The notes beneath the pieces are model-generated. The model searched no databases. It saw only the letters and a list, made by a program, of their open reading frames with translations, and had not been told where the DNA came from. The translations under genes and the position numbers were made by a program. Below are positions 1 to 37,889 of a stretch of 37,889 nucleotides of DNA, in pieces (position 1 is the first letter of the stretch; every line of letters begins with the position of its first letter). Origin of the DNA: Bacteroidales bacterium (lineage in GTDB: Bacteria; Bacteroidota; Bacteroidia; Bacteroidales; JAADGE01); NCBI GenBank assembly GCA_029934515.1, contig JAOZMB010000013.1, positions 1-37,889 on the forward strand, read 5' to 3'.

Positions 1-543
1 ACTAAAAGCCCATCGAAAGAATGGCAACTTGAACATGACGAAGCAAAAAACTGGACTTGGAAAGATGAAAATCCAATTACTAATATAACTTGGAATGATG
101 CTGTTATGTATTGTAAATGGTTGTCGAAAAAAAAAGGGAAAAATTATACATTGCCAACAGAAGCACAATGGGAATTTGCTGCAAAAGGAGGAGTAAAAAG
201 TAAAAAATACAAATACAGTGGAAGTAATAACATAAATGATGTAGCATGGTACGATGAAACTTCAAATGAAAGAGGCCCAATGCCAGTTGGAAAATTAAAA
301 CCAAACGAGCTTGGTATTTATGATATGAGCGGGAACGCTTGGGAATGGTGTCTTGATTATTATGGAAAATATAATTCATCTAAAAAGAAAAACCCAAAAG
401 GACCTGAAAAAGGATTATATAAAGTGGTAAGAGGAGGCTCTTGGTACTACGTTGGACGACTTGCAGTAGTTACAGCAAGAGACGGACCTTATATACATTA
501 CACAAACTATAATTACGGTTTCAGACCAGTGATAAATCCTTAG
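1..543 (+). CDS. SUMF1 / formylglycine-generating-enzyme-like domain protein, C-terminal part (cut by window edge)
   Basis: The reading frame is open from base 1 and ends with TAG at 541-543, so this is the 3' part of a longer gene. Visible SUMF1-fold signatures in order: NPITNITWNDAVMYCKWLS, LPTEAQWEFAAKGG, ELGIYDMSGNAWEWCLDYY, VVRGGSWYY and a final YGFRPV. These define the C-type-lectin-like SUMF1 fold. The cysteine pair used by genuine formylglycine-generating enzymes is absent (the region reads RLAVVTARDG), so catalysis on sulfatases is unlikely; many Bacteroidota paralogues are surface or secreted proteins of unknown role. A decayed relative with the same start of the domain lies at 21612-22630. 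No clear terminator follows. Family assignment is confident, function is not. Confidence 0.85.
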   Translation, partial: TKSPSKEWQLEHDEAKNWTWKDENPITNITWNDAVMYCKWLSKKKGKNYTLPTEAQWEFAAKGGVKSKKYKYSGSNNINDVAWYDETSNERGPMPVGKLKPNELGIYDMSGNAWEWCLDYYGKYNSSKKKNPKGPEKGLYKVVRGGSWYYVGRLAVVTARDGPYIHYTNYNYGFRPVINP

Positions 544-34483: not shown

Positions 34484-36190
34484 TCAAAATTGAATATATT
34501 TGACTACTGCCTGTAGGCTAATTCTACCCTTAAATACATTTTCGTCCAGTGAATAACAAACAGTAAACGGTTTTTTATTATGAATATTTTTATAATGCTG
34601 TGCCATTGAAAAAGCTATTCCAGATAATACTTTATTATCAGAATCTTTCATTTCTATTCTTAGGTGTTCTTTATTTTTTCCGACAGGCATTGTTCTTCCT
34701 GTATCTATAACATTTTTTGTTAAGAACAAAGGAGATAGGTTTCCAGGTCCGAAAGGAGCAAACTGTTTCATTATTCTAAAAAATTTTGGTGTTATGTCAG
34801 CGAATTTTATTTCTGCATCAACTTTAATAACCGGTATCATTTGTGCTGGAGTGATGTTTTCTGATACAAAAGTTTCAAAACATTTTGTAAATTTTTCAAT
34901 ATTTTCAATTTTCATTGTCAATCCAGCAGCAAAAGTGTGTCCGCCAAAATTCTCCAGCAAATGAGCGCATGCTTCAACTGCTGCGTACAGGTTAAAATCA
35001 GAAACAGAACGAGCCGAGCCTGTTGCAATACCATTTGACTCTGTAAGCACTACCGTTGGACGATAATAAGTTTCCGTTAATCGTGAAGCTACAATACCTA
35101 AGACTCCTTTGTTCCATTTTGCATTATAAAGAACAGTACTTTTTTTATTTCTTAATTGGATATTATTACCTATTATTCTTAGTGCTTCATGTGTTATTTT
35201 TCTGTCTATATATTTCCGTTCAGTATTATAATCATCAATTTTTTTTCCAAGTTTTTTTGCTTTTTCTGAGTTATCTGCAATCAATAATTGAACAGTATAT
35301 TTACCTGATTTTATTCTTCCAGCAGCATTAATTCTCGGTCCTATTTTGAAAACACAATCAGTAATAGTTAGAACTTTATTTTCAACACTGGCAATTTTTT
35401 TAATTGCATTTAGTCCTTCTATGGGTTTTATATTTATTTTTTTAAGTCCGAAATAAGCAAGTATTCTATTTTCTCCTGTAATTTGAACAATATCAGAAGC
35501 AATACTTACAACGAGAAGGTCTATATATTTATACAATTTATTAAAATGTATTCTTTTTCTTATTGCAAATGCTTGTAGAAATTTGAAACCTACACCACAA
35601 CCCGAAAGTTCTTTAAAAGGATAATTACAATCAGACCTTTTAGGGTCAAGTACGGCAATTGCATTTGGTATATTCTTCCCAGGTTTATGGTGGTCACAAA
35701 TAATAAAATCTATACCTATTTTATTTGCATATTCAATCTTGTCAACAGCTTTAATACCACAGTCAAGTGCAATAACAAGCGTACATCCTTTTTCTTTTGC
35801 ATAATCTATTCCTTTCAATGATATTCCATAACCTTCGGAGTATCTGTCTGGAATATAATAATATAAATTATCATGTATGTCATTCAAAAATGAATAAACA
35901 AGAGCTACAGATGTTGTTCCGTCAACATCATAATCACCAAAAACAAGTATTTTTTCTTGTTCTGTTATTGCCTTATATAATCTTGAAACCGCTACTTCCA
36001 TATCCTTCATTATGAAAGGATTGTGAAGATTATTTAACGAAGGACGAAAAAAAAACTTCGCCTCATCAAAATTTGTTATTCCTTTTTGCACCAGAAGATT
36101 TGCAAGTATCTCATCGATTTTAAGTATATCCTGCAAATGTTTAATTGTTTCGGGATTGCCCCGAGGTTTTATAATTATTTTATTTTTCAT
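34484..36190 (-). CDS. recJ: Single-stranded-DNA-specific exonuclease RecJ
   Basis: 568 residues from the ATG at 36188-36190; a TTG one codon upstream is in frame but less likely. DHH-family motifs: VFGDYDVDGTTSVAL, ALDCGIKAVDKIE, CDHHKPG with the DHH triad, and GPRINAAGRIKSG. The later GIVASRLTETYYRP and FGGHTFAAGLTM belong to DHHA1. A C-terminal OB-fold segment (APFGPGNLSPLF) completes the enzyme. RecJ degrades ssDNA 5' to 3' in recombination and mismatch repair. A candidate promoter lies at 36210-36240. The gene heads the group recJ - histidine kinase - acyltransferase. Confidence 0.95.
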   Translation of the reverse strand: MKNKIIIKPRGNPETIKHLQDILKIDEILANLLVQKGITNFDEAKFFFRPSLNNLHNPFIMKDMEVAVSRLYKAITEQEKILVFGDYDVDGTTSVALVYSFLNDIHDNLYYYIPDRYSEGYGISLKGIDYAKEKGCTLVIALDCGIKAVDKIEYANKIGIDFIICDHHKPGKNIPNAIAVLDPKRSDCNYPFKELSGCGVGFKFLQAFAIRKRIHFNKLYKYIDLLVVSIASDIVQITGENRILAYFGLKKINIKPIEGLNAIKKIASVENKVLTITDCVFKIGPRINAAGRIKSGKYTVQLLIADNSEKAKKLGKKIDDYNTERKYIDRKITHEALRIIGNNIQLRNKKSTVLYNAKWNKGVLGIVASRLTETYYRPTVVLTESNGIATGSARSVSDFNLYAAVEACAHLLENFGGHTFAAGLTMKIENIEKFTKCFETFVSENITPAQMIPVIKVDAEIKFADITPKFFRIMKQFAPFGPGNLSPLFLTKNVIDTGRTMPVGKNKEHLRIEMKDSDNKVLSGIAFSMAQHYKNIHNKKPFTVCYSLDENVFKGRISLQAVVKYIQF

Positions 36191-36209
36191 CAATATTATA
36201 TCACAGTAT

Positions 36210-36240
36210 TAAAGGTACTTTGCACACTCAACTATGACAA
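36210..36240 (-). promoter_or_regulatory. Candidate recJ promoter
   Basis: On the minus strand TTG (36238-36240), a 20-base spacer and TACCTTTA (36210-36217), one base off the TAnnTTTG consensus. Distance to the recJ ATG is about 20 bases. Confidence 0.35.
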
Positions 36241-36871
36241 CAATGTGTTACACCAAACAAACAAGAAATACCTAATTCAATATAAATTATTTTGGTAAAA
36301 AAAAATAAAATATTACAATTTTACAAATTTTTTTTTGAAAAACTTAATAATATTAAGTTATCATTTTGCAATTCAATAATTTAACATATAAAAAATTATA
36401 AACAATAAACTGATTAAAGTAATAGACCTCTTTCCTAAATAATAAGATTTATGTTATTGATTATCATGTATATAAAAATTTGGCAATCTTAGTAAAGCTC
36501 TCATGTGCTTAACCGAAATACACACAAGTTAAAACATGTATAAATATTCAATTCTATTAACTCATATTTAGAGAAAAAAACATTAAAATATGGAAACATG
36601 CCTTTATTTTATTAATTGTAAAAAAGCATCAATTCACGTGATATAAATATATGTCAAAATTTTTTTTTGAATAATTTATCATTTTATACCTTACAAAAGG
36701 TTAGCAAGAAATCGTTATTGCCTTAATATCATTTATATAGGTTTTAAATTTGTTCCTGTTTTTAGGCGATTTTTTGTGCAAAACTTAGAAAAAAAATTTT
36801 TTCGGCTTATATAATGAATTATTTTGATAAGAAATATTGGTTGTACTAACTAACTATTTATTAATCTTTTT
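36241..36871. other. Non-coding AT-rich interval
   Basis: About 630 bases with stops in all frames and no gene that I can support. It contains a short perfect inverted repeat, AACTTAAT (36341-36348) and ATTAAGTT (36352-36359), and AT-rich sequence without tRNA-like folding. It separates recJ from the transposase remnant. Confidence 0.5.
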
Positions 36872-36901
36872 TATCTTTGCCAAAAAAATAAATCAGCGAT
36901 T

Positions 36902-37066
36902 ATGTCAGAAATTACTTGTCCTTCTTGTTGTTAACTCAATATATAAAAAAATGGTCATATTCATACAGGACATCAAAATTATAAATGTTTAGAAAAAGAT
37001 TGTTATCGACAATTTATCTTAAACTCAACCAAGAAATACATAAGCGAATCCGATTTTTTTTGGTAA
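36902..37066 (+). pseudogene. IS1-family transposase remnant (N-terminal zinc-finger part)
   Basis: In one frame from the ATG at 36902: MSEITCPSCC, stop, LNI, stop, then KNGHIHTGHQNYKCLEKDCY and RQFILNSTKKYISES. This is the InsA-type start of IS1 transposases (CPxC, NGxxxxGxQxYxC, CxRxF, TKKYIS). Two in-frame TAA codons (36932-36934, 36944-36946) kill it, and similarity ends at about 37050, where the leucine-rich-repeat pseudogene begins on the other strand. A TATCTTTGC -7 element lies upstream at 36872-36880. Confidence 0.8.
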
Positions 37067-37889
37067 ACTGCTAAATTGATTACCTTTCAAATACAATTTA
37101 GTAATATTTTTCAGGTTCCAATTTCTTTGGGTAAACTTGTTAATTCATTTTTGTATAAACTTATTCTTCCAATAATATTTTTCAGGTTTCCAATTCCTTT
37201 TGATAAAATTTCCAACATATTATTACTTAAATCAAGATAAGTAAGTTGAGTTTGTTGTAAAATATTTTTGGAATTTCTTGTAATTTATTTGAAAATTCAA
37301 TACCTTTTATAAGTTTCCAATAAGAGCTATCAATATCTGATAAATCGTTTACTGAAACATAAACTGAGTTTATTCGGGTGGTTTTTACTTTTATGAAACA
37401 ATCTTGCTAATCAATATCTTTTATTACCAATTAAATTAATATGTTTTAGGTTTTGGCATTTGGTCACTTCTTTTGGGAGGCGTAAAAGGGCATTATCGCT
37501 TAGATCAAGTCTGTCAATTTTATCAAGTATTTCGTTTTTATTATAATGATTATATACTTTCCATTCCTTATCATGCTCTTTTACTGCTTTGTCGAACATT
37601 GAGGTTTCTACTTTTATTTGCATTTGTTCGGCTTTTTCAAGTGCTTTATCTGCTATTTCTTTTTGTTTTTGTGCTTTGTCAAGTGCTTTTATTATTCAGT
37701 GCTTGCAGTTCATAAAATATTTTTTGTATGTTCGGAAGTTTATCTGTGAACTTATTCAGCAAACTTAATTTATCTGAACGTATTGAAAACAGTGTTTTAA
37801 CTGGTATTTTTCTGTGTAATAAAGTTACTGTTTTTGGTCTTAATATTTCAAGATATACAAATAATGGTGGCAGTTACCGTAATATTCAG
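37050..37889 (-). pseudogene. Broken nSTAND1 NTPase - coiled coil - leucine-rich-repeat gene (cut by window edge)
   Basis: Read on the minus strand from the window end: one frame gives LFVYLEILRPKTVTLLHRKI, then VKTLFSIRSDKLSLLNKFTD and IQKIFYELQALNN, a pattern I associate with the nSTAND1 (novel STAND NTPase) domain. At ~37690 the frame changes to KALDKAQKQKEIADKALEKA (coiled coil), MFDKAVKEHDKEWKVYN and LRRs (IDRLDLSDNALLRLPKEV, CQNLKHINLIGNK) until a stop at 37411. Further LRRs continue in other frames: LTYLDLSNNMLEILSKGI, ISLYKNELTSLPKEIG, KLYLKGNQFSSLPKKIG. The gene stops at the IS1 remnant. Several frameshifts; not functional as it stands. Such STAND-LRR proteins are thought to act in signalling or defence. 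Confidence 0.75.

Follow-up and report, generated by a model that had tools for sequence, protein, structure and literature searches.

Relic of nSTAND1 and leucine-rich repeat sequence between an IS1-like remnant and a repeat fragment in a Bacteroidales genome, and a recurrent SIR2-like, nSTAND1 and exported-repeat gene set in its relatives

Antiphage proteins of the Avs and the bacterial NACHT (NLR-like) types join a STAND NTPase to a repeat sensor at the C-terminus and sense phage proteins in the cytoplasm. Among STAND NTPases, the accessible text of PMC8195603 names the nSTAND1 clade, and that of PMC10907252 describes nSTAND1 proteins bearing FGE domains. The latter also predicts that one sensor of a STAND system, a NACHT-bearing protein, is periplasmic, so the idea of sensing outside of the cytoplasm is not without precedent. 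An operon made of SIR2-like, nSTAND1 and exported leucine-rich repeat (LRR) genes goes unnamed in the literature that we searched by title and beginning of abstract, subscription journals being mostly excluded, and the passages of PMC13174449 consulted on STAND and SIR2 describe no such three-gene set.

We analyzed a stretch of DNA of 37,889 nucleotides (the window), which is the entire contig C197 of a 3.34-Mb Bacteroidales draft genome in 201 contigs; position 37889 is therefore the end of the contig. Genomes, contigs and fetched loci are labelled G, C and L, respectively, G000 being the genome of the window itself. The terminal part of the window holds the following features:

36837 to 37053, forward strand: IS1-like remnant with the left terminal repeat and the start of an InsA-like frame, delimited by alignment to four copies in the same genome
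37049 to 37117, reverse strand: last retained LRR stretch, ending at the IS1 junction, with 52–74% identity over 22–23 amino acid residues to L094, L100 and L102
37117 to 37269, reverse strand: LRR stretch in a different frame, detected by LRR_1 (21.7 bits for a cut-off of 20.6)
37266 to 37463, reverse strand: LRR-region stretch, interrupted by stops, in a third frame, 61% identical over 67 aligned residues to L035
37414 to 37689, reverse strand: coil and first LRR in an open frame of 92 codons, 56% identical over 93 residues to L034 (107 bits)
37682 to 37849, reverse strand: central part of an nSTAND1 domain, corresponding approximately to residues 191–246 of its relatives, by homology to proteins of G005 and G030
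37835 to 37889, forward strand: repeat fragment reaching the contig end, 89–90% identical over 52–55 bases to C149 and C132

The original prediction had recognized nSTAND1 and LRR sequence in this region, and both identities are borne out by homology. With the coil-LRR piece the best match scores 107 bits and with the nSTAND1 piece 64 bits, compared with a maximum of 24.6 bits when eight related proteins were aligned to 200 dinucleotide shuffles of positions 36200–37889. The nSTAND1 piece is 65% identical over 51 residues (37834–37682, reverse strand) to an nSTAND1 protein of G005 and 52% identical over 56 residues (37849–37682) to one of G030, two proteins that score 91–98 bits on PF20703; a direct Pfam scan of the fragment alone returned no match. 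Besides LRR_1, which passes its threshold, the models LRR_8, LRR_4 and LRR_14 align to the LRR piece under their cut-offs. The coil is of low complexity, and the LRR part of two relatives scored far under the cut-offs of the NCBIfam secreted-effector LRR models, with generic LRR similarity. Alignment of the relatives locates the P-loop and Walker B upstream of residue 191, in a part that is absent from the window, and we therefore regard the nSTAND1 piece as a relic rather than as a working member of its clade. Reading through the LRR, coil and nSTAND1 sequence (37049–37849, reverse strand) requires four frame changes and meets stops in addition, and the IS1 frame has internal stops and is cut off, in agreement with the earlier view that both elements are broken. 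This decay is local and does not reflect poor sequence overall, because the adjoining 569-residue ORF at 34484–36193 is open. Screening of positions 36200–37889 against plasmids by blastn gave no match, and a search of PHROGs gave one family without assigned function (E 4e-5). The other extremity of the contig also lies inside a gene, as window positions 1–543 encode the C-terminal end of a protein with an FGE-sulfatase domain (PF03781, E 2.7e-37).

Homology to nSTAND1 stops at about position 37689, near residue 245 of the relatives, and the coil starts at 37689. In the relatives, about 200 or more residues separate these two points (about 200 in the fused protein of G193:C849 and 260 in that of G030:C170). 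Everything between the nSTAND1 middle and the coil is thus missing, which supports a deletion. A membrane segment of nSTAND1 and a signal peptide of the LRR protein would both fall within the lost part. A frameshift alone at 37690, where the frames meet in an A-run, was considered and rejected given the 200 or more residues that the relatives have there. A deletion fusing the NTPase to the coil at about 37690 had been predicted, and the loss of the intervening stretch stands; its placement inside one gene does not stand in the same way, an origin from two genes being at least as likely. On balance, we judge it probable that the relic derives from an nSTAND1 gene and a separate exported coil-LRR gene, fused by deletion and with both ends replaced by repeat debris. 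The ancestral locus would have contained a gene for a membrane-type nSTAND1 NTPase followed by the separate coil-LRR gene and probably preceded by a SIR2-like one. Loss of some 1.5 kb, as estimated from gene lengths in G005 and G147, would have joined the middle of nSTAND1 to the LRR gene at its coil; further deletions would have brought the left end against the IS1-like fragment and the right end against a different repeat fragment, and the remaining sequence would have gathered frameshifts and stop codons.

Comparison with the closest relatives bears on the number of ancestral genes. At E≤0.001 the coil-LRR peptide finds matches in 12 of 60 genomes, and at E≤1e-8 in 9 of 393 from the order, the window's own genome being included in both counts; searching the 92-residue peptide against genome contigs returned three loci with short LRR matches, which were left out of the comparison. 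Its eight best distinct relatives (49–62% identity) are all separate genes that open with a signal-peptide-like stretch. Three of these eight are located behind nSTAND1 and SIR2-like genes or pieces thereof (G282:C198, G147:C118 and G147:C296); the single closest one, G005:C349, is not behind nSTAND1, which weighs against the two-gene origin. For the nSTAND1 fragment, the eight best distinct relatives are all linked to SIR2-like genes. Because the LRR part is nearest to separate signal-peptide genes, and such genes directly follow nSTAND1 in relatives, a loss across a gene boundary is no less likely than a loss within a single gene. The alternative, proposed by the original prediction, is that a single fused nSTAND1-coil-LRR gene lost about 0.6–0.8 kb internally and then decayed. 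Fused nSTAND1-LRR genes do exist (G030:C170, 970 residues; G193:C849, 661 residues; and G190:C36), the first two with a SIR2-like gene upstream, and a fused origin needs a smaller deletion. However, the coil-LRR piece is less like the three fused proteins (47, 41 and 32% identity) than it is like the separate genes, a comparison confounded by kinship because G005 belongs to the window's own family and G030 and G193 lie outside of it. A tree built for separate versus fused origin (23 rows, 4 of 20 branches starred) placed the window row without support. We view the single-gene origin as possible and rather unlikely. The same coil-LRR module also ends a 1212-residue frame in G090:C481 (L126, 184–3819), the start of which carries what we take to be a TIR-like sequence motif; the module seems to be common to different effectors.

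The left end of the relic is an IS1-like remnant that is cut off internally. As the original prediction had advised, copies were sought elsewhere in the genome, and the stretch starting at 36832 or 36837 and ending at 37053 proved 77–78% identical to copies in C23, C60 and C142 and 84% identical to one in C129. Alignment to these copies moves the start of the element from 36872, where it had been drawn, to about 36837. The left end is common to C23 and C142, in which inspection of the sequence reveals both terminal inverted repeats; the right end is gone from the window. The InsA-like frame begins with an ATG at 36902 and contains internal stops; it aligns to the InsA zinc-ribbon model with an E-value of 1.6e-4 (21.8 bits, below the cut-off of 26.1), and the remnant has no DDE transposase domain. 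The sole match to DDE_Tnp_IS1 (PF03400) in the whole genome spans 38 of 131 positions, and the assembly therefore contains no working IS1 transposase. Sequence comparison indicates that C23 and C142 are devoid of 20 internal bases that the window and C129 copies retain, a pattern suggestive of the spread of an internally shortened, non-autonomous form of IS1. Two further repeats are found in the window outside of the remnant: the non-coding 36420–36588, left of IS1 and 90% identical to C72:8974–9145 of the same genome, and 36657–36802, 79% identical to C119:258–414.

LRR homology on the reverse strand reaches down to 37049 and IS1 homology on the forward strand ends at 37053, which fixes at 37049–37053 the direct passage from IS1 into decayed STAND-LRR sequence that had been predicted at about 37050. 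Insertion followed by deletion had been offered as its explanation. The joining of an IS1 fragment by deletion is retained; an insertion of IS1 into the LRR gene is left unsupported, because no LRR homology beyond chance-level rows was found to the left of the element (36200–36836). A history in which IS1 inserted into the LRR gene, and a later deletion took the right half of IS1 together with part of the gene, agrees with the abutment of the two sequences; given the absence of LRR homology on the left, we find it improbable. Such a history would bear on the left junction alone, and it fits an origin from one gene as well as from two.

On the right, nSTAND1 homology yields at about 37835 to the repeat fragment, so that the relic is cut on both sides. 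A peptide from this repeat family matches only the window's own genome, both among 40 relatives and among 296 genomes of the phylum, and the fragment returned no match in Pfam, NCBIfam or plasmids; we presume that it is possibly transposase-like. It is very doubtful that faulty assembly at repeats close to the contig end produced the junctions, for even though the contig ends within a repeat at 37889 and several other contigs of the genome (C20, C105 and C172) end in IS1 matches, misassembly does not explain the four frame changes and stops in 37049–37689, which is not repeat sequence, and the adjacent 569-residue frame is open.

Returning to the preferred reading, two genes fused by deletion, we examined how nSTAND1 genes are organized in relatives. 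Within the order, the G005 nSTAND1 query found matches in 22 of 393 genomes, at 35 places in total. All 35 places with their surroundings, together with G005, G282:C198 and a Haliscomenobacter plasmid, amount to 38 nSTAND1 ORFs counted by one rule, with signal-peptide and membrane calls made by our own hydropathy rules rather than by a trained predictor. A SIR2-like gene is located directly upstream of 26 of the 38 ORFs. The contig ends within 700 nt downstream in six of these, leaving 20 with a visible downstream region, and half of the 20 are directly followed by a signal-peptide repeat gene (nine LRR/coil, one WD40) at a spacing of −61 to +4 nt in nine cases and +250 nt in one. Of the remaining ten, three have LRR or WD40 fused into their own frame, and seven show neither by the references used. 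L120 (G282:C198) is counted among the 38 and fails the distance rules, as it consists of broken nSTAND1 and SIR2-like pieces with an LRR gene about 1 kb further on; L183, whose adjoining WD40 gene is without a signal peptide, was left uncounted. The hydropathy rule assigns a hydrophobic, presumptive membrane segment to 33 of the 38 ORFs, mostly near residues 430–520, one of these calls being the short broken L120 fragment and untrustworthy. Three of the five ORFs without such a segment lie at a contig end and one is interrupted by a stop; the last, the fused G193:C849, is seemingly complete, and the SIR2-like protein paired with it begins with a hydrophobic stretch, so that the topology is not without exception. 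On the Haliscomenobacter hydrossis plasmid pHALHY02 (NC_015512.1), the annotation reads, in order, SIR2 family protein, hypothetical protein, WD40 and WD40. In L177 (G104:C58), two tandem nSTAND1 genes stand behind a single SIR2-like gene.

The window's own genome retains one nSTAND1 paralogue, an open frame of 1140 residues in C189 (L066, 3954–7373) composed of nSTAND1, a membrane segment and WD40, with no SIR2-like gene upstream by the scoring rule. The search for intact paralogues, another suggestion of the original prediction, thus gave a mixed answer: nSTAND1 is open at C189 but WD40-bearing, and no second coil-LRR copy was found in the genome. No SIR2-like match was obtained anywhere in the assembly, and the window contig ends inside nSTAND1, before the site where a SIR2-like gene would be expected. 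A SIR2-like search of 60 genomes gave matches in six, including the source of the query; the window's genome is not among them.

Among the SIR2-like partners, SIR2_2 matches 13 of 15 proteins at E≤0.01, and a profile made from the partners finds KomC (E 0.0025) and ThsA (E 0.038). As a rule, they have neither signal peptide nor membrane segment by the hydropathy rule. Residues P221 and D222 (P-D) and N260 and G263 (N-x-x-G) are invariant in all 15. An Asn has a catalytic role in SIR2 NADases, and the KomC H146N entry suggests one for the aligned His as well. At the positions of the KomC Asn (TTNYD) and His (HG), the aligned SIR2-like profile has Pro and Leu, which makes canonical NADase chemistry doubtful. 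One of the proteins also matches EAD11 and another EAD7, effector-associated domains that could recruit partners. When PADLOC was run on the 15 proteins, two ThsA models matched two and one members, respectively, and four further models matched one each. Run on five relatives, it gave a weak SIR2 match in one, a HEAT/ARM model for the WD40 paralogue of the window's own genome and nothing for the other three, with no match to its STAND models among the five. PDB sequence searches with a single SIR2-like and a single nSTAND1 protein returned one weak, unrelated row each.

By itself, the relic is a case of ordinary genome decay and carries little weight, beyond illustrating how a locus may be lost when neighbours are fused by deletion and both ends are swapped for mobile-element debris. 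The point of interest is the recurrent three-gene set, whose order in relatives (SIR2-like, membrane nSTAND1, signal-peptide LRR or WD40) predicts a receptor of immune type whose sensor would lie outside of the cytoplasm. Judging by homology, the intact system would most likely be a switch across the inner membrane: some cue in the envelope would be sensed either by an exported protein with LRR or WD40 repeats or by a repeat domain attached past the membrane segment, the STAND NTPase would relay the signal, and the SIR2-like partner would act inside the cell. A putative defence role for the set is suggested by the protein families involved. We tentatively propose that the window preserves what remains of a STAND system, as yet undescribed, that spans the envelope and combines an exchangeable exported LRR or WD40 sensor, a single-pass membrane nSTAND1 NTPase and, in the cytoplasm, a SIR2-like partner whose active site is non-canonical; such a system might sense phage or envelope damage outside of the cytoplasm and act inside. 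If true, this envelope-receptor reading would widen the known topology of bacterial STAND receptors.

Compared with known elements and systems, the left-hand remnant resembles IS1-family elements by the terminal inverted repeats of its sister copies, alongside a sub-threshold match to the InsA zinc ribbon, and differs from them by having no DDE part. The nSTAND1 fragment is 52–65% identical to proteins that score on PF20703; unlike nSTAND1 NTPases, it keeps about 55 residues and has lost the P-loop and Walker B side. The pHALHY02 set shares with the relatives a SIR2-like gene directly before a membrane-segment nSTAND1 gene, followed by genes for exported repeat proteins, and differs from the window in that WD40 takes the place of LRR and the genes are intact. 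Thoeris ThsA and KomC, both SIR2 NADases, are within reach of the profile of the SIR2-like partners, which depart from KomC at the Asn and His positions described above. Finally, whereas Avs and NACHT proteins sense in the cytoplasm, the sensor of the relatives is predicted to lie outside of it.
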